Positions 1-13,475 of a stretch of DNA of 13,475 nt are shown here, piece by piece. Origin of the DNA: an uncultured Arenimonas sp. GTDB taxonomy: Bacteria > Pseudomonadota > Gammaproteobacteria > Xanthomonadales > Xanthomonadaceae. Below the pieces are notes generated by a model, which had not been told where the DNA came from, did no database searches, and saw only the letters and a list, made by a program, of their open reading frames with translations. Location of the stretch: the NCBI GenBank assembly GCA_946885815.1, contig CAMPHE010000014.1, forward strand, positions 1 to 13,475, read 5' to 3'. Positions within the stretch are counted from its first letter, which is position 1. The number at the start of each line of letters is the position of its first letter. The position numbers and the translations under genes were made by a program.

Positions 1-3000
1 ACAGTTGCAGCGCCGCCCCGCTCACCACCAGCGTCTCGTTGCCGGTGGCTCCGGTGGCGGACGCGGTGGCCAGCGACCGCGCGGGCGCCACGTCGATCTG
101 CGGGCTCGACGGTGTCGTCGCGCGAGCCAGATACAGGTCGACGTTCTGCGCGCTGTTCGTCGTGATCGTCAGCGAGGTCGCCCCCGCCGGCACGTCGACG
201 AACATGCGGTCCTGCGCGGCGCCGACGGCCAGGCGCAGGCCCACCGGTTTCGCCGCGAGCCGGATCGCCGGCGACCGCGTCTCGTTCCGGTCGATCCGCA
301 CCGGGAACATGCCGCGGTCGGCCCCGCCACTGCGGACTCGGACGAACCCGACCCGCGCCTCGCCCGGCAGCAGGCCGACGTCGGCGAACGCGACACGGAC
401 CGGGAACGATGCGCCGCGGGGCAGCCCGCCCGGCCCGGTGGCGACGAACACGGTCGGGTCGGCCGGCGCCGTCAGCGGCACCACGAAGGCCTCGATCGTG
501 CCGGTCTGCGCCGCCGCTTCGCGGTTGTGCAGCATCGCCCACCAGCGGACCGTGCCGGTGCCGGGGTGCGTGAGCGTCATTTCGCAGCGCTCGCGACCGA
601 CCGACATCGCCGCGGTGCAGCGGACTTCTTCCGGGTCGGCGACGCCGTCGCCGTCCGTGTCGACACCGAGGTAGAGATCGACGTCGCCACCGCCCTTCGC
701 GTCGACCAGCAGCCGCGTCGTCTGCGCGACGCCGTCGGCCGGCGCCGGCAGCGTGTAGACCACGGACGACGTGCCCGCCGCGGCGAGGTCCCACGGCGAC
801 TCGGGCGATGCATCGACGCCGAGCGCGCGCGACCCGATCGTCGGCGCGACCAGCGCCGTCGCCTCGAACGTCGCCGCCGGCAGCGGTCGCAGGCCGGTCA
901 TCGCGACGTCGACGAAGCCGGCACCGCTCGCGGTCGCCTGGGCGATGTCCACCGCAGGCCGCAGTTCCACCACGAGCCGGCCGGCGGCACAGCGGCCGTC
1001 GGTCTCGCACAGGCGGTAGCGCACGAAGTCGGAGCCGCTGGTGTCGGCCTTGCGGACATAGCGGATGCGATCGTCCGCCGCGGTCGCGGTACCGCGGTCA
1101 TCGACGGTCGCGGTGCCGCTGCCGGACTGCACGATCGCGAGCGAGCCGCCAGCGACCCGCGCCGGCGTGAACACGTCGTTCGCCAGCACGGCGATCAGCG
1201 ACGCCGGCGCGTTCTCGCGCAGCACGACGCGGTCGTCCCGGGTCGCCAGCGGCGGCAGCGAGGCGTCGTCGTCGACGATCGTGCCGGTGGCGCTGCCGTC
1301 GGCGACGGTCGCCCCCGTGACGCCGGACACCGCGACGGTGAACGTCTCGTCCGTCTCGACCGCCGTGTCGCCGTTGATCGCGACCGCGAACACGTAGCTG
1401 CTCGCCCCGGCGGCGATCTGCTGGCCGGCGAGGCCGCGGGCGAGATAGTCGCTGCCGGCCTTGGCCGTACCGTCGGCCGTGGCGATCGCGAAGCTCACCG
1501 GCGACGGCGCCGGCTTCGACAGGCGCACGGTGAACGTGGCCTGGCGCGTGCCGCTGTCGCCCTCGTCGAGCGAAACATCGGCGATCGACAGCGACGGCGG
1601 CGGTTCCTGGTCGTCGTTGAGGATCGTCCCGGTCGCGGTGCCGCGCGCGACGACCGCACCGGTGACCGCGCTCACCGTCACGCCGAACGTTTCGTCGGCC
1701 TCGACCGCGGTGTCGCCGTTGACCGTCACCGCGAAGGTACGGCTGGACTCGCCGGCGGCGATGGTCTCGCCCGCGAGCGAGCGCGCGGCGTAGTCGGTGC
1801 CGGCGGTCGCGGTGCCGTTGGAGGTCGCGATCGAGTAGCGGACGGCGGCGGGCGCGGCCTGCGACAGCCGGACGGTGAACAGCGCCGTCTTCGAGCCGCC
1901 ATCACCCTCGGCGAGCGCGACGTCGGCGACCGACAGCTGCAGCTGGTCGTCGTTGCGGATGGTGCCGACGATCGGCGCCGGCGCCAGCGTCGCGCCCTCG
2001 AGCTCCGTGATGCGCAGGCTGAAGGTTTCGTCCGTCTCGATCGTCGCGTCGCCGCGGACCAGCACTTCGACGCGCGCGCCGGGCTGCCCCGCCGGAATCT
2101 CGACCTCCTCGTCGATCGCGACGTAATCGCTGCCGGACGTCGCCGTGCCGGCGACGGTGGCCAGCCGGAAGCGGACCGGCTCGGCCGAGCCCTCCGACAG
2201 CTTCAGGTCGAACACCGCGACGCGGACGCCGCGCTCGCCTTCGTCGATCGCGACCGGCGCGGCGGAGAGCACCGGCGGCTCCGGCGTCTCGCCGCCGATC
2301 GTGAGCGGATTCGAAGGGGCCGAGTCCGGGCCGATCGACGATCCGGCCGCCGCGCGCACGGTGAACGTGTAGGTCACGCCCCGGGTGAGATTCGTGATCT
2401 CGCGCGTGGTCGACAGCGTGCCGGCGGCGACGTCGTAGCCACCGGCAGGCCACGGCACCACCGTGTAGCTGGTGATCGCCGGCGCGCCTTCCGGCACGAC
2501 GCTCGGCGCGAACGTCACGATCGCCGAGTTGCCCTCGCCTGCCGTCGCGACGACGGCGGTCGGTGCGGCCGGCATCAGCATCGTGCGGGCGACGCGGATG
2601 CGGTGCTGGCCGAAGTCGGCGATGTACAGGTCGTCGCCGACCAACGCGATGCCGATCGGCCGGAGCGAACGCTGGTTCGCCGGGCCGCCGTCGCCATTCC
2701 ACGTCGTCGTGCCGCTGCCCGCGTAGGGGAACACCGCGCCGGTCGCCGTGACCTGGAGGACGCGGTTGCCGTCCGTCGACACCAGCAGCGCGCCGTCGGA
2801 ACGGAACGCGAGGTCCAGCGGCCGGCCGATCCGGGCCTCCGGCGCCAGCACCGATTCGAAACCGTACGTGGCCCCGGGCCACGAAGCGTGCTGGACGCCG
2901 ACATGGCGCCGGACGATGCCGTCGGTGCCGATGCGATGGACGATGGCATTGCCGTAATCGGCGACATACAGCGCGCCGGACGCATCGAACGCCATGCCCC

Positions 3001-6000
3001 GCAGATCGCCGAACTGCGCCGCCGTGGCGGGGCCGCCTTCGCCCGAGAAGCCGCAGCTCGTGCCCGCGATCGTCTGCAGGCGTCCGTCCGCGCCGATCGC
3101 GCGGACGCGGCAGTTCGCCGTGAACAGCAGACGGCCGTCGGGATGGATCGCCAGCTGACGCGGCAGGAACAGCGGCGATTCGGCCGCCAGCGCGCCGTCC
3201 GCACTCTCTTCGCGCAGACCGTTGCCGGCGATCGTGCTGATCGTCCCGTCGACGGCGATGCGGCGGATGCGCTCGGCATTCTGGTCGACCACGTAGAGAT
3301 TGCCCTGCGCGTCGACGGCGAGGCCGGACGGCCAGCCGAGCTGTGCTTCCGTCGCCGGGCCGCCGTCGCCGGAGAAACCGCTCACGCCGGTACCGGCGAT
3401 CGTCGTCAGCACGCCGTCGGGCGCGCGATGCAGGATCCGGTTGTTCTGCTGGTCGGTGAAATACACGCCGCCGGCGCCATCGGCGACGATGTCCTGGGGA
3501 CCGTTCACCAGCGATCCCGCGCCGGCCGTACCGTTCCCCACGATCGTCGACAGGTAGGTGGCGCCCGGATCGTCGTTGAGCAGTTCCACGCGCGCGGGCG
3601 CCGTCGGCCCGATCGCACCGGACACGTCCTCGATCACGATCTCGAACGACTCGTCCGGCTCGAGCCACTCGTCGCCCAGCCCCTGGAGCTGGACCGGCAC
3701 GTCGAACGCGGAGGCCCCCGCCGGAATCGTGTAGCGGGTCGGCGCGATGGCCGTGAAGTCGCGACGCAGGTCGGTCGTGAGCGAAGTCGCGGTGACGTCG
3801 CGCGTCGACAGCGTGAACGAGATCGGCGCGACGGTGGGTACGTCGGACAGCACGTTCACGCGCAACCGCGTGGCGGGGGCGCCGTTGTAGCCTTCGAGCA
3901 GGCGCATGTCGTCGATGACGATCCGCGCCTCGTCGTCGCGGATCGTGCCCGTCGCGGTGCCATCGGCGATCGTCGCACCGATCGGGGCGGCGACGTACAT
4001 CCGGAACGATTCGTCGACCTCGGGCACGGTGTCGCCATTCACCGCGACCGGGAAACGCAGCACGGTCTGGCCGGGCGCGAACGCCAGGCGCGTCGGCGCG
4101 CGTGCGACGTAGTCCTCGCCGGGGAACGCGTCGCCGTCGCCGGTCAGGGCGTACACGGCCACTTCGTGGGGCGCCGGCTCGGACAATCGCAGCGTGAACA
4201 GCATATGCCGGGCGCCGGCATCGCCTTCGACGACTTCCGCGTCGTCGACCGACACCGACGGCAGCACGCCGTCGTCGTCGCGGATCGTTCCGGTCGCCTC
4301 GGACCCGCGCACGGTCGCCGCCGTCGCGCCGGTGATCCGCGCGGTGAAGCCTTCGTCGCCTTCGGGCAGTCGATCACCCGTCACGATCACCGGGAATTCG
4401 ACCGAGGTCGCGCCGGCCGGAATGAGCAGCCCGCGCACGCGGCGTCCGACGTAGTCCAGCCCCGCCGTCGCGGTGGCATTCGCCGTTTCGACATCGACCA
4501 GCACGTCGCGCGGGCGCGCGCGGTCGAGGCTGACGGTGAACGCCGCGACCCGCGTGCCCTCGTCGCCTTCGTCCACGCCGGCGCCGGTGATGGAAACGGT
4601 CGACACGTCGTCGTTGATGATCGTCGCCACGGCGACGCCGTCGGCGACGATGGCACCCGTGGCGCTGGTGACGCGCGCGCGCAGGGTCTCGTTGGGCTCG
4701 GCCTCGGTGTCGCCGAGCACGGTGACGTTGAAGCGGCCGGAGGTCTCGCCTGCCGGGATCGCCAGCGTCGCCGTCCTGGCGACGTAATCGCTGCCGGCGA
4801 CGGCCTTGCCGTCGGTCGTGGCCAGCCGCACGGTCGTGCCGCCGGCCGGTGCCGGCTTCGACAGGCGCACCGGGAACCGGGCGAGCGTCGTGCCGCTTTG
4901 GCGTTCGACCACTTCGACATCGTCCACGTACAGCATCGGCAACGCCGACGCCTTGGGCACGATCGCGTTGGAGCGCGTCGACCACGGCCCCGGGCCGGCG
5001 GCGTTCACCGCACGCGCCGCGAAGCGATAGGACGTGCCGTTCTTCAGGCCGGTGACCCGGCGCACGAGGCTGTCGCCGCCCGCATCGGTGTCGTCGCCCC
5101 CGCCCGGGAAGGACCGCACCTCGTAGCCGGTGACCGGCGAACCGCCATCGGTGGCCGGCGCGGAGAACGCGACCATCGCCTCGCGGTCGCCGGCGGTGGC
5201 GGCGCCGATCGTCGGCGCGCCGGGCGCGCGGATCGCACCGACGCGGCGAACGCGTCGCGACCCGTCGGCGATGAACACGTTGCCGGCCCCGTCGATCGCG
5301 ATGCCGCGCGGCGTGCCGATCTCCGCCAGATGCGCCGGGCCGCCGTCGCCCGACGCCCCGGCCCAGCCGATGCCGATGCGCCGGATCGCGCTGCCGTCGG
5401 CGCCGAGCTTGAGCACCAGTGCCTGGTTCGTGTAACCGAAGTAGACGTCGCCGTTCGGAGCGACCGCGAGCGTGCCGGGTACCGGACGATTCAGGCCCTC
5501 GGGTTCCGTGTACAGGGTGTCGACGCGGCCACCGGGCGTGATCGAACGGATCGCGAAGTTGAAGGCATCGGCGACCAGCAGGTCGCCGTCGACGTCGAAC
5601 GCCAGCCCCGACGGGCGGTCGAACAGCGCCTGCGTCGCCGGTCCGCCGTCACCGCCGTAGCCGGTCACCAGGCCGCCCGCGACGCGCTGCAGCGCGCCCC
5701 ACGGCGTCAGCCGCACGACGCCGCAGCGATCGGCCATGTACAGGTTGCCGCCGCCGTCGAACGCCATCGCCTGGACGGACAGCCCGACTTCCTTCGCCGG
5801 GACGATGCCGACGATGCACGAGGCGGAAGCGCCGACCCGGCCGGCGACGGTGGTGATCAGGCCGGACCGGGTGATCCGCCGCACGACCCCGTCGAGCGCA
5901 TCGCTCACGTAGACGTTGCCGGCGGCATCGACCGCCAGCGCCGTCGGACTGCGCAGCTTCGCGAACAGCGCGAGTCCGTCGACATCGCCCGCCAGCGTGC

Positions 6001-9000
6001 CGCCGCCGGCGAACGTGGTCAGCAGGCCGGTGTCGTCGATCCGCAGCACGCGGTCGTTGTCGATCACGTACCGGTTGGCGGTGCCGTCCAGCGCGATCGC
6101 CTTCGGCCAGCCCAGCCCGGACTCTACCGCCGGAGCGCCTTCGACCACCGTGCTGGTGCCGTCGCCGGCGACGGTGTCGATCAGTTCGTCGAAGTCGTCG
6201 GTGACGAGCGTGCCGGTGGCGGTACCGCGCACCACGGTCGCGCCGATCACGTCCGACAGGCTCACGGTGAAGGACTCGTCCGGTTCGGCGACGCTGTCGA
6301 CCACGTGGCTGACCGTGAAGGACACGGACGACTCGCCGATCCCGATGTAGCGGTCGCGGATCGTCAGCGCGGTGTAGTCGGAACCGGCCGTCGCGGTGCC
6401 GTCGGCGGTGGCCGCGTCGAAACGCACGATGTCGGTCGCCGGGCGGTCGAGCTGCACCGTGAACGTCATCATCCGGCTCGGGTAGGCCGATTCCAGGATC
6501 GTCACGTCGGCGATGCTCATCGACGGCAGCGCCGTGGCGGTCGGCGTCACTTCGTTGGACGGCTCGGATTCGTCGCCGGTGCCGAACTCGTTCATCGCGC
6601 GGACGACGAAGCGATAGGCCGTGCCGTTGCGCAGCCCGGTGACCCGGTGCGTTCCCGCCGTGGTGTACGCGTCGACGTCGGTGCCTTCACCGCCGACCGC
6701 CGAGACCACGTAGCCGGTGACATGACTGCCACCACTGTCGACCGGCGGCTGGAACGTGATGCTGGCTTCGCCGTCGCCGGCGGCGGCGATGCCGATGCGC
6801 GGCGCCCCGGGCAGGCCGAGCGGGCCGACACGACGCACTCCGGCACGCTGCGCCAGCACGAACTCGGCCGGCCCGACGGCGGCGACGTCGTAGGTGTTCA
6901 CGAGGCGGCCGGACGTGGGCGACTGGCCGTCCGCGACCAGGGGCAGCGTCGAATCGCCGCCAGCCACCGTCGCGATCAGGCCGAAGCGGCTGATGCGGCG
7001 GACGCGACCGGTCGTCGACTCGACGAAGTACAGGTTGCCCAGCGCGTCGATGTCGAGACCGATGGGGCGGTTCAGCGACGCCTGCAGCGCCGGGCCGCCG
7101 TCGCCGTCGGAGGCGTCGATGCCGTCGCCCGCGATCGTGCGGATGATGCCGTCGGCGTCGATGTGGCGGACGCGGTAGTTGAAGGTGTCGGTGAGGTAGA
7201 GCGTGCCGTCGGGAGCGACGGCGACATCCCCCGGACCGGACAGCGAAGCGTGGATCGCCGGACCGCCGTCGCCGCCGAACTGTGCGGACTCGTTCAGTCC
7301 GGCCACGGTGTCGAGGATGCCGGCCGGCGAGATGCTGCGGATGCGGCGTCCCGACGCGAAATAGAGGGTGCCGCCGGCATCGATGTCCATGCCGGTCACC
7401 GACTGCAGCTGCGCGTCGCGGGCCTGGCCACCGTCGCCGGCACCGTACTCGCCGGGATCGGTGCCCCCGTTGCCGGCGTAGGTGGTGATCACGCCGTCGG
7501 AACCGACGCGGCGGATACGCCGCGACTCGCCGATGTAGAGGTGGCCCGCGTCGTCGAGTGCCACGCTCATCGGCGCATCGAGGGCCGCCGCGACCGCGAG
7601 GCCGCCGGCGCCGTCGTGACCACGGATGCCGCGGCCGGCGACGATCGTGACCACGCCTTCCGTGGAGATCCGCCGCACCACGTTCCCGACCATGTCGGCG
7701 ACGTAGACGGCGCCGTCGCGGGGGTCGTGGGCGATGCCCCGGTGCTCGTCGCCGATGCCGCGCAGCAGCGAGCGGATCACCGTCGCGGTGTCGTCGTCGT
7801 TGATGATCGTCGCGGTGCCGGTGTCGTCGCTCGCGACGACGGAGACGAGGTTGGCGAGCACCAGGTCGAAGGTCTCGTCGGTCTCGACCGTGGTGTCGCC
7901 GTCGATCGCGACGGCGAACCGCATCGACGTGCCGCCGTACGGGAACACGGCCGTACCGGATTCCGCGTGGTAATCACTGCCGGCGCGGGCGCCGCCGTCG
8001 ACGGTCGCGTAGTCGAAGCCGATCGTCTTCGCCACCGGTCGCAACGACGTGACGACGAATTCCGCGAACTGCGTGCCGTCGTCGCCCTCGACGATCTCGA
8101 CGTCGCCGACCGACAGCGACGTGTCGTCATCGACGATCGTCACCGTCGCGCTGGCGGTGCCGACCTTGGCGCCGGCGACCTGCGTCGCGCGCACCGTGAA
8201 CACCTCGTCGTCCTCCACCCGCAGGTCGCCGCGCACCGGCACCGTGAACACCGCACTGCGGCTGCCCGCCGGAATCGTCTGGGCCGGACGGTCGACGGCG
8301 TCGTAGTCGCTGCCGGCGATCGCGCTGCCGTCCGCCGTGGAGACGCGGAACGTGACCGCGTTCACCGTCGGCACGCTCAGCGCCACTTCGAACGCGAGCG
8401 TGGTGGTGCCCGAATCGCCTTCGCCGACCGACTGGCCCGCGAGCGACAGCGTCGTGTCGTCGTTGCGGATCGTGCCGATCGCCGTCGCGTCGGCGAGCTT
8501 CACCGCGCCGGCGTTGGACAGCACGACCTCGAACGTCTCGTCCTCTTCGTCCGCGGTGTCGCCGCGCACCACGACGTCGAACGTGGCGCTGGTCTGGCCG
8601 GCGGCGATCGTCATCCCGGCGACGCTGCGCGCGGTGTAGTCGCTGCCGGCGCTGGCGCTGCCGTCGGCGGTCGCGGCGTCGAACGTCACCGCGCCCGAGG
8701 TGGCCTGGTTGAGGCGGACCGTGAAACGCAGGTTGCGCGTGCCGCTCGCGCCCTCGACGACTTCGGCGTCGTCGATGTACAGCTTGGGCTGCACGGGCAC
8801 GACGGTCGCGTAATACGCCGACACCGTCGGCGCCGCATTGGCGTGGCTGCGCGCGTTGTCCGCGTAATCGGCGATGCCGCACGGCTGGCCGGCGCAGTCG
8901 CTGATGCGCGGGTTGGACAGCCGCCCGACCTCGGCCTGCCCGGGGTCCGCGTAGCCCATGATCGACGAGAAGCCCGGTCCCCGGTGCCCGCGCGAATACG

Positions 9001-10042
9001 GGAAATGGCCACGGAACGCCTCGCCGTACGCATCGAGCGTGGCCTGGTCGTGGCTCGACCCCATGTTGTGGCCGATCTCGTGCGTGAAGGTGTAGACCGG
9101 GCACGAATGACCTTCGACCACGGCGCCGTAGGCGCGCGTGCGGTCGAACGCACCGCCGTCGAAGCCGCCCACATTGGCGATGCCGCAGGTGCCGTTGAAC
9201 GCGGTTTCGTCGATGTCGCGGAGGATCGTGACCAGGTCGGCGCCGTACTGCACGCGGATCGGATCGACCACGCTCTTGAGCGGGGTGCCGGCCGGATTGG
9301 CGAGATCGGAAAGCGCCTGCTCGATCAGCTTGTAGCCGGTGTAGTCGACCAGGCGGCTGTGGACGATGCGCAGCTCCATGTCCGAACCGCTGTCGCGGTA
9401 AGCCTGGTTCGACAGGTCCTCCAGGTGCATCAGCCGCGTGTTCACCGCCGCTTCGGAACCGAAACGCGTGACCACGCCGGGCGAATACACCACCAGCACG
9501 TCGACGAGCGGCACCACGCCGGCCTGCGGGTGGAGCACGAACTCCGGACGCCCGTCGCTCTTCGGAACCGCGGCGCCCGGCAGCAAGACGGCGTCGCTTC
9601 GCGCCGGCGCGCCGAGCACGCCGCCTTCGGCGAGGAACGCCGCGCCGCCGCGCATCGTCAGCTGCAGCGCCGGTCCGGTCGATTGGGGGATCACTCCGAA
9701 AACCGCGTCGGGGCCGACGGTGACGACCACGCGCTGCGGCCCGGTGGCCGTCTCGACCGTTCCGATCCAGGTGCGCACCCCGCCGTCGTGGACGACGCCG
9801 CGCTCGTGGCGGGCGAGTACGGGGCGGCCGCCGGTGCCCGGCAGCGCCAGCATCTGGCCGGGACGGGCCGCCTCGAAGATGCGCGCGTCGACGCGGACCG
9901 CATGCAGGGTCTGTTCGCCCGCGGCGAGCTGCCGCTTCATCGGCTCGGCGACGATGCCGGCGGGCGGGAAGGTGATGTCGGCGGATGCCGTCGTGGACAG
10001 GGCGAGCAACAGGCCCGCGAGCAACCCTTTGGCGACACCCAT
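1..10042 (-). CDS. Giant secreted reprolysin-like zinc metalloprotease with Calx-beta, NHL and FN3 repeats (C-terminus cut by window edge)
   Basis: Predicted exported zinc endopeptidase; substrate unknown. The start ATG at 10042 follows a GGGGGAAG ribosome-binding site and begins a signal peptide (K5, hydrophobic 6-19, probable cleavage ASA|D after residue 21). Residues 22 to about 177 look like a propeptide and contain no cysteine, so no cysteine switch is visible. The protease domain spans about 178-415, with HEIGHNMGSSHD (zinc ligands H321, H325, H331; catalytic E322) and a Met-turn at M362 (SIMGY), the metzincin signature. Then follow Calx-beta 1-3 (420-751), NHL propeller 1 (752-1075), FN3 (1076-1168), Calx-beta 4 (1174-1283), NHL 2 (1284-1604), FN3 (1605-1696), Calx-beta 5-8 (1703-2158), NHL 3 (2159-2488), FN3 (2489-2582), Calx-beta 9-11 (2590-2926), an Ig-like domain (2927-3029) and PPC-like domains to the edge. 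I read 3347 codons without a stop or frameshift. Its tail is paralogous to the upstream gene on the same strand. The exact peptidase family (M12B-like versus a relative) is not certain. Confidence 0.95.
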   Translation of the reverse strand, partial: MGVAKGLLAGLLLALSTTASADITFPPAGIVAEPMKRQLAAGEQTLHAVRVDARIFEAARPGQMLALPGTGGRPVLARHERGVVHDGGVRTWIGTVETATGPQRVVVTVGPDAVFGVIPQSTGPALQLTMRGGAAFLAEGGVLGAPARSDAVLLPGAAVPKSDGRPEFVLHPQAGVVPLVDVLVVYSPGVVTRFGSEAAVNTRLMHLEDLSNQAYRDSGSDMELRIVHSRLVDYTGYKLIEQALSDLANPAGTPLKSVVDPIRVQYGADLVTILRDIDETAFNGTCGIANVGGFDGGAFDRTRAYGAVVEGHSCPVYTFTHEIGHNMGSSHDQATLDAYGEAFRGHFPYSRGHRGPGFSSIMGYADPGQAEVGRLSNPRISDCAGQPCGIADYADNARSHANAAPTVSAYYATVVPVQPKLYIDDAEVVEGASGTRNLRFTVRLNQATSGAVTFDAATADGSASAGSDYTARSVAGMTIAAGQTSATFDVVVRGDTADEEDETFEVVLSNAGAVKLADATAIGTIRNDDTTLSLAGQSVGEGDSGTTTLAFEVALSVPTVNAVTFRVSTADGSAIAGSDYDAVDRPAQTIPAGSRSAVFTVPVRGDLRVEDDEVFTVRATQVAGAKVGTASATVTIVDDDTSLSVGDVEIVEGDDGTQFAEFVVTSLRPVAKTIGFDYATVDGGARAGSDYHAESGTAVFPYGGTSMRFAVAIDGDTTVETDETFDLVLANLVSVVASDDTGTATIINDDDTATVIRSLLRGIGDEHRGIAHDPRDGAVYVADMVGNVVRRISTEGVVTIVAGRGIRGHDGAGGLAVAAALDAPMSVALDDAGHLYIGESRRIRRVGSDGVITTYAGNGGTDPGEYGAGDGGQARDAQLQSVTGMDIDAGGTLYFASGRRIRSISPAGILDTVAGLNESAQFGGDGGPAIHASLSGPGDVAVAPDGTLYLTDTFNYRVRHIDADGIIRTIAGDGIDASDGDGGPALQASLNRPIGLDIDALGNLYFVESTTGRVRRISRFGLIATVAGGDSTLPLVADGQSPTSGRLVNTYDVAAVGPAEFVLAQRAGVRRVGPLGLPGAPRIGIAAAGDGEASITFQPPVDSGGSHVTGYVVSAVGGEGTDVDAYTTAGTHRVTGLRNGTAYRFVVRAMNEFGTGDESEPSNEVTPTATALPSMSIADVTILESAYPSRMMTFTVQLDRPATDIVRFDAATADGTATAGSDYTALTIRDRYIGIGESSVSFTVSHVVDSVAEPDESFTVSLSDVIGATVVRGTATGTLVTDDFDELIDTVAGDGTSTVVEGAPAVESGLGWPKAIALDGTANRYVIDNDRVLRIDDTGLLTTFAGGGTLAGDVDGLALFAKLRSPTALAVDAAGNVYVSDALDGVVRRITRSGLITTVAGRVGASASCIVGIVPAKEVGLSVQAMAFDGGGNLYMADRCGVVRLTPWGALQRVAGGLVTGYGGDGGPATQALFDRPSGLAFDVDGDLLVADAFNFAIRSITPGGRVDTLYTEPEGLNRPVPGTLAVAPNGDVYFGYTNQALVLKLGADGSAIRRIGIGWAGASGDGGPAHLAEIGTPRGIAIDGAGNVFIADGSRRVRRVGAIRAPGAPTIGAATAGDREAMVAFSAPATDGGSPVTGYEVRSFPGGGDDTDAGGDSLVRRVTGLKNGTSYRFAARAVNAAGPGPWSTRSNAIVPKASALPMLYVDDVEVVERQSGTTLARFPVRLSKPAPAGGTTVRLATTDGKAVAGSDYVARTATLAIPAGETSGRFNVTVLGDTEAEPNETLRARVTSATGAIVADGVAVATIINDDVSTVSITGAGVDEGDEGTRVAAFTVSLDRARPRDVLVDVETANATATAGLDYVGRRVRGLLIPAGATSVEFPVIVTGDRLPEGDEGFTARITGATAATVRGSEATGTIRDDDGVLPSVSVDDAEVVEGDAGARHMLFTLRLSEPAPHEVAVYALTGDGDAFPGEDYVARAPTRLAFAPGQTVLRFPVAVNGDTVPEVDESFRMYVAAPIGATIADGTATGTIRDDEARIVIDDMRLLEGYNGAPATRLRVNVLSDVPTVAPISFTLSTRDVTATSLTTDLRRDFTAIAPTRYTIPAGASAFDVPVQLQGLGDEWLEPDESFEIVIEDVSGAIGPTAPARVELLNDDPGATYLSTIVGNGTAGAGSLVNGPQDIVADGAGGVYFTDQQNNRILHRAPDGVLTTIAGTGVSGFSGDGGPATEAQLGWPSGLAVDAQGNLYVVDQNAERIRRIAVDGTISTIAGNGLREESADGALAAESPLFLPRQLAIHPDGRLLFTANCRVRAIGADGRLQTIAGTSCGFSGEGGPATAAQFGDLRGMAFDASGALYVADYGNAIVHRIGTDGIVRRHVGVQHASWPGATYGFESVLAPEARIGRPLDLAFRSDGALLVSTDGNRVLQVTATGAVFPYAGSGTTTWNGDGGPANQRSLRPIGIALVGDDLYIADFGQHRIRVARTMLMPAAPTAVVATAGEGNSAIVTFAPSVVPEGAPAITSYTVVPWPAGGYDVAAGTLSTTREITNLTRGVTYTFTVRAAAGSSIGPDSAPSNPLTIGGETPEPPVLSAAPVAIDEGERGVRVAVFDLKLSEGSAEPVRFRLATVAGTATSGSDYVAIDEEVEIPAGQPGARVEVLVRGDATIETDETFSLRITELEGATLAPAPIVGTIRNDDQLQLSVADVALAEGDGGSKTALFTVRLSQAAPAAVRYSIATSNGTATAGTDYAARSLAGETIAAGESSRTFAVTVNGDTAVEADETFGVTVSAVTGAVVARGTATGTILNDDQEPPPSLSIADVSLDEGDSGTRQATFTVRLSKPAPSPVSFAIATADGTAKAGSDYLARGLAGQQIAAGASSYVFAVAINGDTAVETDETFTVAVSGVTGATVADGSATGTIVDDDASLPPLATRDDRVVLRENAPASLIAVLANDVFTPARVAGGSLAIVQSGSGTATVDDRGTATAADDRIRYVRKADTSGSDFVRYRLCETDGRCAAGRLVVELRPAVDIAQATASGAGFVDVAMTGLRPLPAATFEATALVAPTIGSRALGVDASPESPWDLAAAGTSSVVYTLPAPADGVAQTTRLLVDAKGGGDVDLYLGVDTDGDGVADPEEVRCTAAMSVGRERCEMTLTHPGTGTVRWWAMLHNREAAAQTGTIEAFVVPLTAPADPTVFVATGPGGLPRGASFPVRVAFADVGLLPGEARVGFVRVRSGGADRGMFPVRIDRNETRSPAIRLAAKPVGLRLAVGAAQDRMFVDVPAGATSLTITTNSAQNVDLYLARATTPSSPQIDVAPARSLATASATGATGNETLVVSGAALQL
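2..1264 (-). other. C-terminal Ig-like plus PPC-like module of the giant protease, paralogous to the neighbouring gene
   Basis: Residues about 2927-3347. An Ig-like domain (RDDRVVLREN, VLANDVF, then a CETDGRC cysteine pair) is followed by a PPC-like beta-sandwich. That sandwich has DVDLYLGVDTDGDGVADPEE, a thrombospondin/dockerin-like D.D.DG..D..E calcium loop, and a conserved cysteine pair (RCTAAMS to ERCE). Next come a linker domain (GEARVGFVRV, FPVRIDR) and the start of a second PPC-like domain (FVDVPAGATSL, NVDLYLA). The order matches the gene at 10237-12396 domain by domain. The reading frame is still open at the left edge, so the end of the protein is missing. Confidence 0.88.
1265..2275 (-). 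repeat. Calx-beta repeats 9-11
   Basis: Three consecutive units (residues 2590-2699, 2700-2811, 2814-2926) close the stalk. Units 10 and 11 are strikingly alike (TADGTA/TSNGTA..GTDY or GSDY..R.LAG..IAAG.SS..FAV..NGDTAVE.DETF), suggesting a recent tandem duplication. After repeat 11 a short SLPPL linker leads into the Ig-like domain. Confidence 0.9.
2297..2578 (-). repeat. Fibronectin type III domain 3
   Basis: Residues 2489-2582: MPAAPTAVVATAGEG entry, APAITSYTVVPWPAGG, core TNLTRGVTYTFTVRA, exit SNPLTIGG. It keeps the position directly after an NHL propeller but is more divergent than FN3 domains 1 and 2, which resemble each other more closely. Confidence 0.85.
2579..3568 (-). repeat. NHL beta-propeller 3 (six repeats)
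   Basis: Residues 2159-2488 hold six NHL units. Examples are LAVDAQGNLYVVDQ, MAFDASGALYVAD and IALVGDDLYIADFG. GFSGDGGPAT and GDGGPAN link blades. A cysteine pair (ANCRV, TSCGF) sits around blades 3-4. The 17-bp plus-strand word GCCGGGCCGCCGTCGCC recurs exactly at 2679-2695 and 3354-3370 here, and at 5334-5350 and 7089-7105 in the other propellers. It encodes the GDGGPA blade link. Confidence 0.87.
3569..4936 (-). repeat. Calx-beta repeats 5-8
   Basis: Four consecutive Calx-beta units (residues 1703-1812, 1813-1924, 1925-2037, 2038-2158). Units 5-7 are typical, ending INDD, RDDD and RDDE. Unit 8 is the longest (about 121 residues) and most divergent: it opens LLEGYNG, carries a LEPDESF strand, and ends in LLNDD instead of the TGTI.(N/D)DD ending. 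NHL propeller 3 follows at once. Confidence 0.87.
4955..5230 (-). repeat. Fibronectin type III domain 2
   Basis: Residues 1605-1696 form an FN3 module: RAPGAP entry, FSAPATDGGSPVTGYEV, the core TGLKNGTSYRFAARAVN, and exit RSNAIVP. The TGL(K/R)NGT(S/A)YRF stretch is shared almost exactly with FN3 domain 1. This supports duplication of an NHL-FN3 cassette. Confidence 0.88.
5231..6193 (-). repeat. NHL beta-propeller 2 (six repeats)
   Basis: Residues 1284-1604 hold six NHL units, for example LAVDAAGNVYVSD, MAFDGGGNLYMAD, LAFDVDGDLLVAD and IAIDGAGNVFIAD. They are joined by TT.AG turns and one GDGGPA link in each of two blades. Blade 1 is degenerate (LDGTANRYVID). Two cysteines occur (ASCIV and DRCGV), close enough to pair. 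FN3 domain 2 follows directly at 4955-5230. Confidence 0.85.
6194..6523 (-). repeat. Calx-beta repeat 4 (single)
   Basis: A single Calx-beta unit (residues 1174-1283) lies between FN3 domain 1 and NHL propeller 2. It opens SIADVTILES, lacks the usual EG(D)SGT glycine-rich loop (ESAYPS instead), and keeps TADGTATAGSDYTAL and EPDESF. It ends in DD just before the next propeller. The altered acidic loop may weaken calcium binding at one site (inference). Confidence 0.85.
6540..6817 (-). repeat. Fibronectin type III domain 1
   Basis: Residues 1076-1168 read as a bacterial FN3 module. They have a PGAP entry, a TFQPPVDSGGSHVTGYVV B-C strand region, the core TGLRNGTAYRFVVRAMN, and an exit at EPSNEVTP. 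It is closest in sequence to the second FN3 domain at 4955-5230, which opens the same way (PGAP.IG.A.AGD.EA). Confidence 0.88.
6818..7789 (-). repeat. NHL beta-propeller 1 (six repeats)
   Basis: Residues 752-1075 contain six NHL-type units. Each has a P.(G/S)(V/L)A.D..G.LY..(D/E) strand, an R(V/I)RRI segment and a G.I.T.AG.G turn; GDGG(P/Q)A links several blades. Six units suggest one closed six-bladed propeller. NHL propellers usually mediate protein or ligand binding. An FN3 domain follows directly (6540-6817), opening with PGAP and closing near SNEVTP. Confidence 0.85.
7790..8785 (-). repeat. Calx-beta repeats 1-3 (protein repeats)
   Basis: Three consecutive repeats of about 110 residues directly follow the protease domain (residues 420-529, 530-640, 641-751). 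Each has an EG(D/A)SGT-type opening, a TADGSA..GSDY centre, a GDT..E.DE(T)F strand and a closing (N/D)DD. These are the hallmarks of Calx-beta domains, which bind calcium in the sodium-calcium exchanger and form rod-like stalks in many bacterial exoproteins. Acidic loop residues are conserved, so calcium binding is plausible but not shown. Confidence 0.88.
8916..9510 (-). other. Metzincin catalytic domain core of the giant protease
   Basis: This segment encodes most of the peptidase domain, from the VDVLVVYSPG strand onward. The zinc site HEIGH is encoded at 9068-9082, continuing through NMGSSHD, so the full HExxHxxGxxHD consensus is intact. The Met-turn methionine is encoded at 8957-8959, 41 residues after the first histidine, a normal metzincin spacing. 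Cysteines at GTCGI, HSCPV and SDCAGQPCG could form disulfides. All catalytic residues are present, so the enzyme is expected to be active. Boundaries are approximate. Confidence 0.9.
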
Positions 10043-10236
10043 GCTGCACTTCCCCCTGTCCGGACGACCCGCACCCCGCCGTCGACCCTCGGCGCGGGCC
10101 GGGGAAATCGACATGTATCGGGGGGCGGGCCGTATCCTCGCGGAAACGGGAGGGCCACGCAACCGTTTTCAGGGCGAATTTCGCCGGGCGCGCCCGGGGT
10201 TCCCGGAGCGGCGCCCGGCACACGCCGGGACGGGCG
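10043..10236. other. Intergenic gap between the two exoprotein genes
   Basis: These 194 bases separate the stop of the PPC protein gene from the start of the giant protease. They contain GC-rich inverted repeats next to the upstream stop, a ribosome-binding site (AGGGGGAAG on the minus strand, about 8 bases before the ATG), and a 13-bp word (10100-10112) shared with the kmo upstream region. I see no convincing -35/-10 pair. The length and hairpins argue for separate transcription rather than a tight operon, without proving it. Confidence 0.6.
10214..10229 (-). terminator. Hairpin just after the PPC protein stop codon (possible terminator)
   Basis: A perfect 6-bp GC stem (CCCGGC/GCCGGG) with a 4-base loop begins seven bases past the stop codon. 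A second perfect 14-bp palindrome (CCGGGCGCGCCCGG) lies at 10184-10197. There is no T-run after either, so this is a weak candidate for an intrinsic terminator. It could equally be a 3' end-protecting hairpin. Confidence 0.3.
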
Positions 10237-12396
10237 TCAGGGCGCGCAGCCCTGGGTCGCGCCCGGGCCGCCGAGCGGCTGCACGTCGTCTTCCTGCGAC
10301 CACGTGCCGTCGACATCGCCCGAGAACAGGCCGGCGGCGGCCATGAACTCGAGGGTCGGCACGTCGTCGAAGCCGCGGCCGAACACGCCGATCGTGTCGC
10401 GCTCCGGATCGCCCGCGCGCTCGCACAGCGGGCAGAAGCCGCGCAGCTGTTCGAGGTCGATCAGTTCGTCCGCGCCGCCGAACGACCCGCGTTCGGCGGT
10501 GATGAATCGCGGCACGCCCAGCGCGTCGTAGACGAAGGCCGCGTAGTACTCGTAGTCGGGGAACAGCTGCACGCTGTAGCCGGTGCCGGCGTGGTCGGGG
10601 TCGAACCACGTGGAACTGGCGTCGACGACGTCGCCGTCGAGCGTCGGGCAGCCGCGACCCAGCGACTCGAAGGTTTCCGACCCCGTCTCGCCGTCGATCT
10701 CGTAGCTCCACGCGAAACGGTCCGGCCCGACCGGCGTCAGCACCACCCGCCCGACCTGCACCAGTTCGCGGCTGTCGCCATCCCACGCGGCCCGCAGCAG
10801 CGGGCTGGACCAGACGCCGGTGACGCCGGGCGCCGGCGCCTGCAGGTAGTACCAGGTCGGCGTGCGGTCCTGGAAATAGGTGTACCAGAGCCCCGTCCAC
10901 TGCTCGGCCGCCGGGTACAGGAAGACGCCGTGGCCGCTGCGGTCCGGGTTGAAGTAGCTGCCCGGTCGCACCGCGGGGGCTTCGGCCGTGACGAACGCCT
11001 GCGCGGTGACCAGCGCCGCCGTGTCGTCGGCATTGCTGATCCGCACGAACCACCGGCCCGCCGTGAGCGCGTCGCCGGTGAGGACGACGGTCTCGAAGCC
11101 GGTCGGCCCGGCGGACGACGCCGTCGCCTCCGCGGCCAGCGGCGACACGCCGACATGGGGCTCGGTGTCCCCGCTCGCCGGCGCGAGATAGAGATTCATG
11201 TCGGCGGACGAATTGATCACCACGCGCAGTTCCGTGGCCCCGGCGGGCACGTCGACGAACAACCGGTCGTGGTCGGTGCCGGATGCGAGCGAGAGCGCCA
11301 GCGGCGACAGGCCCAGCAGCGTCGCCGGCGCGACGTTCGCGGTCCGGTCGACACGAACGGGGAACAGGCCGGTCTCGACGCCTTCGCTCACGACGCGCAC
11401 GTAGCCGACGCGCGCCTCGCCGGCCGTGGTGGTGGCATCACCCCACGCGACCCGGACCGGGAACTCGACCAGCGCGGGCACGTCGCCCGGACCGGTCGCG
11501 ACCAGCGAGCCGTCGGACAGGTCGTCCAGTGATACCTCGAATGCCTCGACGCGCGCGGACTGCGCCTCGGCGGCGCGGTTGTGCACCCACGCCCACCAGC
11601 GCACCGGCGTCGTGCCGGGATGGGTGATCGCCAGTTCGCAGCGCTCGACGGCGGTGGACATCGCGGCGGTGCACTGCAGCTCGCCGGGGTCCGGCAGCCC
11701 GTCGCCGTTCGCGTCGACGCCGAGATACAGGTCGACGTCGCCGGTTTCGCCGCCGGCGTCGACCAGCACCCGCCAGCGCTTCGGCAGACCGTCGGCGGGC
11801 GCCGGCAGCGTGCGCACGACCAGCGCCATGCCGTCGCCGTCCCACGGTTCTTCCGGCGTCGCGTCCACGGCCAGCGCCGGCGTTTCGATCCAGGGCGCCG
11901 CGAGCGGGGTCGTGCGGAAGACCACGTCCGGAAGGTCGCGAAGGCGAGCGAGCGTGACGTCCTCGAATCCGGTGCCGGTCGGCGAATCGATCGCGACGTC
12001 GACGTGGGGGCGCACCGTCAGGTTCAGCTGCGCCTCGGCGCAGGGGCCGGTGTCTTCCTCGCAGATCTGGTACGAGAGCACGTCCTCGCCGCCGAAGTCG
12101 GCGGGCGGCGCGTAGACGATGCGGTCGTCGCCGGCGTCGGCGGTGCCGCGGGTGTCCACCACCGCCTCGCCGGTCGGCGGCGAGGAGACGCGCAACTCGC
12201 CGCCGTCGACCGCGCCGGCATCGAACACGTCGTTCGCGAGCACGTCGATCGTGACGGGGCCACCGTTCTCGGCGACGACCACCCGGTCGTCGCGGGCGAC
12301 CGGCGCGGCGAAGGCATTCGCGGCCGACAGCACGAGGACGAGCGCGGCGACGCCGGAACGGCGCGTCGGGCTGGGACGGGAACATGGACGCTTCAT
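10237..12396 (-). CDS. Secreted Ig-like/PPC-domain protein with C-terminal two-fold repeat (freestanding paralogue of the giant protease tail)
   Basis: 719 residues, function unknown, no enzyme motif seen. The ATG at 12396 has a GGGGA ribosome-binding site six bases upstream and starts a signal peptide (arginine/lysine-rich 1-13, hydrophobic 15-26, cleavage near AFA|AP at 30-31). Residues 32-128 are Ig-like (ARDDRVVVAEN, VLANDVF, cysteine pair CEEDTGPC). About 129-290 is a PPC-like sandwich with a D.N.DG..D..E calcium-loop-like segment and a conserved cysteine pair. About 300-350 is a linker domain and about 370-470 a second PPC-like domain. Residues about 477-665 hold two related units, each starting FNPDRSGHG or FDPDHAGTG, rich in Trp and Tyr, then a CPLC motif. 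I recall similar aromatic tails on other xanthomonad exoproteins but cannot name a family. The frame stays open upstream to 13446, but that extension is antisense to kmo and lacks a signal peptide. Residues 32-444 align with the tail of the adjacent giant protease. Confidence 0.93.
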   Translation of the reverse strand: MKRPCSRPSPTRRSGVAALVLVLSAANAFAAPVARDDRVVVAENGGPVTIDVLANDVFDAGAVDGGELRVSSPPTGEAVVDTRGTADAGDDRIVYAPPADFGGEDVLSYQICEEDTGPCAEAQLNLTVRPHVDVAIDSPTGTGFEDVTLARLRDLPDVVFRTTPLAAPWIETPALAVDATPEEPWDGDGMALVVRTLPAPADGLPKRWRVLVDAGGETGDVDLYLGVDANGDGLPDPGELQCTAAMSTAVERCELAITHPGTTPVRWWAWVHNRAAEAQSARVEAFEVSLDDLSDGSLVATGPGDVPALVEFPVRVAWGDATTTAGEARVGYVRVVSEGVETGLFPVRVDRTANVAPATLLGLSPLALSLASGTDHDRLFVDVPAGATELRVVINSSADMNLYLAPASGDTEPHVGVSPLAAEATASSAGPTGFETVVLTGDALTAGRWFVRISNADDTAALVTAQAFVTAEAPAVRPGSYFNPDRSGHGVFLYPAAEQWTGLWYTYFQDRTPTWYYLQAPAPGVTGVWSSPLLRAAWDGDSRELVQVGRVVLTPVGPDRFAWSYEIDGETGSETFESLGRGCPTLDGDVVDASSTWFDPDHAGTGYSVQLFPDYEYYAAFVYDALGVPRFITAERGSFGGADELIDLEQLRGFCPLCERAGDPERDTIGVFGRGFDDVPTLEFMAAAGLFSGDVDGTWSQEDDVQPLGGPGATQGCAP
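10400..10968 (-). repeat. Two-fold aromatic C-terminal repeat in the PPC protein
   Basis: Two units of about 90-110 residues start at residues about 477 and about 592. Unit 1 reads SYFNPDRSGHGVFLYP, then WTGLWYTYFQD and PTWYYLQ. Unit 2 reads STWFDPDHAGTGYSVQLFP, then YYAAFVYD and GVPRF. The shared pattern is F(N/D)PD..(S/A)G.G, an aromatic strand, then a second aromatic strand near (T/V)P. The spacing suggests an internal duplication forming one beta-rich domain. Boundaries are approximate. Confidence 0.65.

Positions 12397-13475
<1,079 letters not shown>

Follow-up and report, generated by a model that had tools for sequence, protein, structure and literature searches.

A giant secreted-type metzincin with three blocks of NHL units from Arenimonas, probably a composite exoprotein with a shared C-terminal module

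Metzincins of the M12B type are recognized by the zinc motif HExxHxxGxxH(D) and a Met-turn. Dedicated terminal modules of exported proteins have parallels in the T9SS CTDs and the short CTERM tails. As described in an excerpt of its report (PMC4334185), Mep72 of Pseudomonas aeruginosa leaves the cell by type II secretion, and its metzincin domain is released from carbohydrate-binding domains in the course of export. Bacterial teneurin-like proteins, or YD-RHS toxins, combine an FN-plug, NHL, a YD shell and a variable C-terminal toxin, according to an excerpt of PMC13018210. A search of the open-access literature for NHL together with metzincin, reprolysin or metalloprotease found no paper.

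The window analyzed here, by which we mean the whole 13,475-base stretch of DNA from an uncultured Arenimonas, holds two minus-strand genes and the 5' part of one plus-strand gene:

2..10042, minus strand: giant metzincin/NHL/FN3/Calx-beta gene, 3347 aa in the window, 3' end truncated by the window edge
9980..10042, minus strand: putative signal peptide, residues 1-21 (MGVAKGLLAGLLLALSTTASA), by eye from the translation
8771..9523, minus strand: metzincin (M12B reprolysin-like) catalytic domain, residues 174-424 (Pfam, HMMs, alignment)
9047..9082, minus strand: zinc motif HEIGHNMGSSHD, residues 321-332 (motif search)
8951..8968, minus strand: Met-turn SSIMGY, residues 359-364 (motif search)
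7793..8791, minus strand: Calx-beta 1-3, residues 418-750 (HMMs)
6812..7786, minus strand: NHL block 1, six units, residues 753-1077 (HMMs)
6533..6811, minus strand: FN3 no. 1, residues 1078-1170 (Pfam and HMMs)
6194..6529, minus strand: Calx-beta 4, residues 1172-1283 (HMMs)
5225..6184, minus strand: NHL block 2, six units, residues 1287-1606 (HMMs)
4946..5224, minus strand: FN3 no. 2, residues 1607-1699 (Pfam and HMMs)
3569..4942, minus strand: Calx-beta 5-8, residues 1701-2158 (HMMs)
2573..3559, minus strand: NHL block 3, six units, residues 2162-2490, closing into a six-bladed propeller in the model (HMMs; AlphaFold2)
2288..2572, minus strand: FN3 no. 3, residues 2491-2585 (Pfam and HMMs)
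1265..2278, minus strand: Calx-beta 9-11, residues 2589-2926 (HMMs)
2..1240, minus strand: start of the C-terminal chassis from residue 2935, Big_9-like and jelly-roll/PPC-like, window-truncated (54% identical to P0002)
10237..12396, minus strand: P0002, 719 aa, a headless protein with a signal-peptide-like start and the Big_9/PPC/CTD chassis, no protease or propeller (Pfam, alignment)
10240..10989, minus strand: CTD of P0002, 250 aa, common to P0003 (alignment)
12514-13475, plus strand: FAD monooxygenase, window-truncated, divergent to P0002 (Pfam FAD_binding_3)

The giant gene starts with an ATG at 10042, preceded by GGGGGAAG, and runs to base 2 as the single uninterrupted frame reported in the initial annotation; since no stop codon occurs before base 2, the window edge truncates the gene after 3347 residues. 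A near-identical complete version of the protein, P0003 (3619 aa), differs at 20 of the 3347 positions, one of them the final residue at the window edge, and contains the parts that lie outside the window, namely the end of the PPC region and a CTD of ~250 aa. The open frame is far longer than chance would give: the longest frame that arose when the window was simulated 100 times with a first-order Markov model had 812 codons. Antisense to the gene, in the same codon register, lies an open frame of 3509 codons (2-10531, plus strand); it is explained by the absence of TTA, CTA and TCA codons (0 of 3347) from a gene with a GC3 of 0.92 and is no evidence of a gene. Scans of the window for tRNA and Rfam families returned no tRNA and no Rfam match at gathering score. 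A plasmid origin was considered and rejected, there being no near DNA match among plasmids; the metzincin part matched 41 distant protein records from plasmids, all below 60% identity (36 from Xanthomonas, 4 from Pseudoalteromonas and 1 from Photobacterium).

The modules follow one another in the order metzincin, three Calx-beta, six NHL, FN3, one Calx-beta, six NHL, FN3, four Calx-beta, six NHL, FN3, three Calx-beta and tail. Unit totals of 11 Calx-beta, 18 NHL (three six-unit blocks) and three FN3, as first read from the translation, were recovered by HMMs purpose-built from the giant's own repeats, and the Pfam scan agrees (Calx-beta 307.6 bits, TEN_NHL 207.6 bits, and fn3 101.7 bits over 3 stretches). 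The signal-peptide-like N terminus likewise stood, as did the intact HExxHxxGxxHD motif and Met-turn; together with a reprolysin-like Pfam profile well over its cut-off (Reprolysin_4, PF13583, 70 versus 22 bits), they support a secreted-type metzincin with an intact catalytic motif. The PPC-like and Ig-like domains of the initial annotation fared differently: PPC was found in P0003 at 31.3 bits, and for an Ig-like domain Pfam made no call in either the window protein or P0003, such a domain being placed by alignment as Big_9-like, with 54% identity to P0002, in which Big_9 scores 46.2 bits. P0003 has 16 cysteines, grouped in pairs or fours within single modules, with a single pair in NHL block 2 and another in NHL block 3, a pattern that would be expected of an oxidised exported protein.

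The C-terminal chassis consists of a Big_9-like domain, two jelly rolls, one of which is the PPC, and the CTD, which spans residues 3369-3619 of P0003 and has no Pfam or NCBIfam match. This shared chassis was invisible to the initial annotation because the last domain of the giant lies outside the window, although the neighboring P0002 displays it. The CTD reaches the stop codon in 35 of 35 ORFs from regions chosen for a CTD match, and it ends 0-3 residues before the stop in the best ORF of 30 of the 38 CTD genomes, for each of which up to 9 candidates were scored. In Arenimonas-like relatives, the same tail follows a metzincin or NHL-FN3-Calx and, by Pfam, S8 subtilase, M64, FG-GAP, a di-haem peroxidase and a MopE motif, and a single genome (G043) holds five CTD-linked head kinds (metzincin, NHL, FG-GAP, subtilase and MopE motif). 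A crude signal-peptide rule was positive in 34 of the 35 CTD ORFs, several positives lying in sequence upstream of the likely start, so that the count does not serve as evidence. The family PF27177 is precomputed for P0003 yet absent from our own Pfam scan of it; since its listings take in numerous metzincins that do not belong to the CTD group but just 1 of 8 CTD relatives, it is probably not the CTD. In the model of P0002, residues 553-691, the second half of the CTD, have a pLDDT <50; Foldseek with the whole model gave no global match (TM ≤0.14 of the query among the 50 matches listed), and a further look at the fold concerned mainly residues 137-443, the two jelly rolls. Among the papers listed in the literature searches, none described the shared tail itself.

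Several further observations concern the CTD and its carriers. Within the domain, as seen in P0003 (3369-3619), a repeat of the [FW]FNP.RSG.G type occurs twice, and the metzincin P0021 ends in a loosely similar WWN..EGGRGFS stretch, which suggests a wider, distant domain family. A MauG/MbnH-like di-haem enzyme is fused to FN3, Big_9 and CTD (L170 2133-6590), and MopE copper-motif proteins with a CTD occur at two loci (L165, L182). In several relatives, two or three CTD-bearing frames also follow one another in tandem (L166 4441-16592, L171, L174, L175 and L176), and one such frame, scanned with Pfam, is an M64 peptidase.

The metzincin end of the giant has counterparts in shorter proteins. Eight relatives of 1455-1472 aa are collinear with P0003 at both ends (metzincin, three Calx-beta, chassis and CTD) and contain no NHL; the alignment of P0003 with these eight places the giant in an Arenimonas metzincin-Calx-chassis-CTD family, its CTD being that of P0003. 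The Arenimonas reprolysin-like metallopeptidases P0008, P0013 and L001 (the last from A. composti), of 1455-1519 aa, are 39-46% identical to it in the metzincin and share the signal-peptide-like start, Calx-beta, the jelly-roll/PPC chassis and a CTD ending in TQGC, but they have 3 Calx-beta units, no NHL/FN3 cassettes and less than half of the giant's length. Genome G043 encodes such a metzincin-Calx3-chassis-CTD protein (L129) separately from an NHL-FN3-Calx-chassis-CTD protein (L123 10724-14653), and the same split recurs in G165 (L130 with the metzincin, L124 5346-9191 with NHL). The two propeller proteins have the cassette order of the giant, from NHL through FN3, Calx-beta and chassis to CTD; unlike the giant, they lack a protease and carry one propeller set, in which 5 NHL units were found, rather than three of six.

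The explanation that we favor, with a probability of about 0.66, sees the giant as a composite exoprotein built upon a C-terminal module that other proteins share: a secreted M12B metzincin protease, probably type II exported, uniting two kinds of head (the metzincin and three NHL/FN3 cassettes) that relatives keep on separate proteins, with Calx-beta units between them. In the proposed course of events, the signal peptide would target the protein to Sec, type II secretion would probably carry it across the outer membrane, and the PPC/CTD end might retain it on the cell surface or within the matrix, where propellers and FN3 domains could bind polymers or partner proteins, the Calx-beta units would act as spacers, and the metzincin would cut local substrates, perhaps once released in the manner of Mep72. 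GspG, a type II secretion pseudopilin, scored over the cut-off in all 10 of the CTD genomes tested and in 2 of 14 control genomes. As the test covered CTD genomes, two of which passed barely (G001 and G010, with 91.0 and 95.2 versus 88.85 bits), and as two controls were positive, GspG indicates an available export route, not a link to the CTD.

For the frame of the giant, fusion of two paralogues across their common linkers is likely; as the source of the propellers, the same fusion is unproven. In our pool of collected sequences, the best matches of the NHL blocks are long NHL proteins from elsewhere (40.5-45.7% identity), not the propellers of Arenimonas-like relatives, and block 3 together with its FN3 has its joint best match in P0153, another metzincin/NHL protein; several donors of the propellers are hence conceivable, and a tie to P0153-type proteins is possible. 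Seven of the eight matches of FN3 no. 1 and 2 in the pool of the same analysis, the best ones included, are FN3 domains of CTD-bearing proteins, and FN3 no. 3 had no match in the pool of collected sequences. A unit-by-unit test for duplication of whole-block cassettes gave a permutation p of 0.107.

The gene neighborhood offers a further comparison. P0002 lies upstream of the giant gene on the same strand, and stand-alone chassis frames of 723-743 codons occur in five relatives (L191, L196-L199). The seven best matches of the truncated FAD monooxygenase, which we take to be a kynurenine 3-monooxygenase, in the family of A. composti are 82-83% identical, which makes an Arenimonas-like member of the Lysobacteraceae the most likely source of the window. 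A. composti (G001, which holds L001) has a P0002 relative, 52% identical and also divergent beside the monooxygenase, the only one in the six monooxygenase regions compared. This 19-kb region has no metzincin or NHL ORF, and the A. composti metzincin gene is on a different contig from the P0002 relative. The one comparison suggests that, in the lineage of the window, the giant gene arrived at the P0002/monooxygenase site by addition or by a move.

The initial annotation had regarded one metzincin with three propellers in this order as, to its knowledge, undescribed. Two protein searches from the protease side, which scored the candidates sharing most words, gave 5 proteins in a long length band and 80 in a shorter one, and NHL occurred only in P0003 of these 85. 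A genome scan, with 80 loci of 352 relatives kept, contained 87 metzincin ORFs (one gene double-counted via L081), one of which, L025 from a Wenzhouxiangella MAG, has a single NHL match. Of 297 genomes in the A. composti family, 118 contain a match to the metzincin (E 1e-15); the longest open frame among the matches listed, with few candidates scored per genome, is 1792 aa, so none of these listed metzincin matches is the giant form. NHL blocks themselves are common in the family, with 91 of the 297 genomes matching block 3 plus FN3 at E 1e-12.

When the search was begun with the NHL block, 3200 long proteins matched at E 1e-10, and among the best 120 of the 3200, which were inspected, at least five NHL proteins besides P0003 have a reprolysin-like Pfam domain (P0152, P0153, P0163, P0173 and P0176, 2781-3044 aa), and P0145 has a fragment of one below the cut-off. 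Like the giant, the five have an N-terminal reprolysin-like domain (with HEIGHNFGATH), FN3 and NHL (24 units); unlike it, they are without Calx-beta or CTD and, in 4 of 5, have TIG domains. Their metzincin was missed by our purpose-built metzincin HMM, and in P0152 and P0163 the NHL units, read from the sequences, form two runs of 12 instead of three blocks of six. A unique architecture was thus rejected, the NHL-block search having revealed, unlike the protease search, other metzincin/NHL proteins; it is the exact Calx-beta/CTD form that stays rare, being confined to the window protein and P0003 among the matches listed. Judging from these sequences, metzincins were probably joined to multiple NHL propellers independently in at least two settings.

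Among alternatives to the composite exoprotein, the one that survives best is a split of the Mep72 kind, in which the metzincin would be clipped off during or after export and act free, leaving ~3200 residues as an adhesin or matrix protein. Among NCBIfam models, that of Mep72 matches the catalytic domain best (144 bits, residues 180-418), its metzincin is liberated in the excerpted account (PMC4334185), and the metzincin of the giant is likewise N-terminal, with spacer domains directly after it. The score nevertheless falls far below the 645-bit cut-off of the Mep72 equivalog (NF052434), the C-terminal part of Mep72 is unmatched, and a cleavage site in the giant is only hypothetical; we consider such a split possible, with the odds against it. 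As a special case, it would be in keeping with the shared chassis of our preferred explanation.

The propellers and the Calx-beta array might instead be a mere extender of size and reach, without specific ligands. Across CTD proteins and metzincin relatives, repeat numbers vary freely (Calx-beta 0-11, NHL 0-18), and the units of the three NHL blocks resemble each other weakly, blocks 1 and 2 being 34-35% identical to block 3. The six-unit pattern is nonetheless kept in three of three blocks, which suggests folded, selected domains and makes a pure extender unlikely. The expectation of closed propellers was borne out for block 3, whose six units close into a six-bladed NHL propeller in an AlphaFold2 model; for blocks 1 and 2, both of which served as rows of the alignment for block 3, it rests on the same six-unit pattern.

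More doubtful still is the model of the initial annotation, a surface-tethered processive protease whose propellers would pass substrate along a calcium-stiffened stalk to the metzincin. The modelled closure of block 3 is consistent with it, as is an acidic motif of the E-x-[DN]-E type in each of the 11 Calx-beta units. Against it, the propeller-free metzincin relatives are the common form, and nothing indicates processivity; neither this property nor the calcium-stiffened stalk found support here, and we regard the model as improbable. That an assembly misjoined a metzincin gene and an NHL gene, which sister genomes carry as separate genes with the same tail and which could conceivably be misassembled over Calx-beta repeats, is barely credible against P0003 (ENA, 18.2-kb contig, cluster of 29 member sequences), which has the identical order with 20 differences over 3347 aa.

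Beyond the composite exoprotein itself, we tentatively suggest, at somewhat less than even odds and by analogy with T9SS CTDs and CTERM, that Arenimonas-like Lysobacteraceae possess, in the jelly-roll/PPC-CTD tail, an undescribed module for sorting or display that is restricted to their clade. Such a module would carry M12B, S8 and M64 peptidases, NHL and FG-GAP propellers, a di-haem enzyme and copper-motif proteins to one surface location, its heads being swapped or fused via Calx-beta/FN3 linkers, and the giant would be a two-headed product. The CTD could equally be a binding domain. Taken alone, the giant is an unusual yet understandable assembly of known domains, a modular secreted metzincin in a rare combination. 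Of greater interest is the terminal module common to it and several other exported proteins: a terminal domain unmatched in Pfam and NCBIfam, placed behind five kinds of head in G043, resembles a dedicated module for export or surface retention. We know of no common signal of type II secretion substrates, and the question could be tested in a clade that has one uniform terminal module.

Compared with the described systems, the giant is not a teneurin-like toxin, a possibility rejected when Pfam scans at E 0.01 found no YD, RHS or FN-plug family. Only the NHL part matches the teneurin-like protein (PDB 9ifo, as described in the excerpt of PMC13018210), and the giant is without the YD shell, FN-plug and toxin end. 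Mep72, to judge from the excerpt of PMC4334185, is a secreted metzincin with C-terminal binding modules, as we propose for the giant, and may also provide a precedent for a metzincin that acts once clipped free; where Mep72 bears carbohydrate-binding modules, the giant has propellers in their stead.
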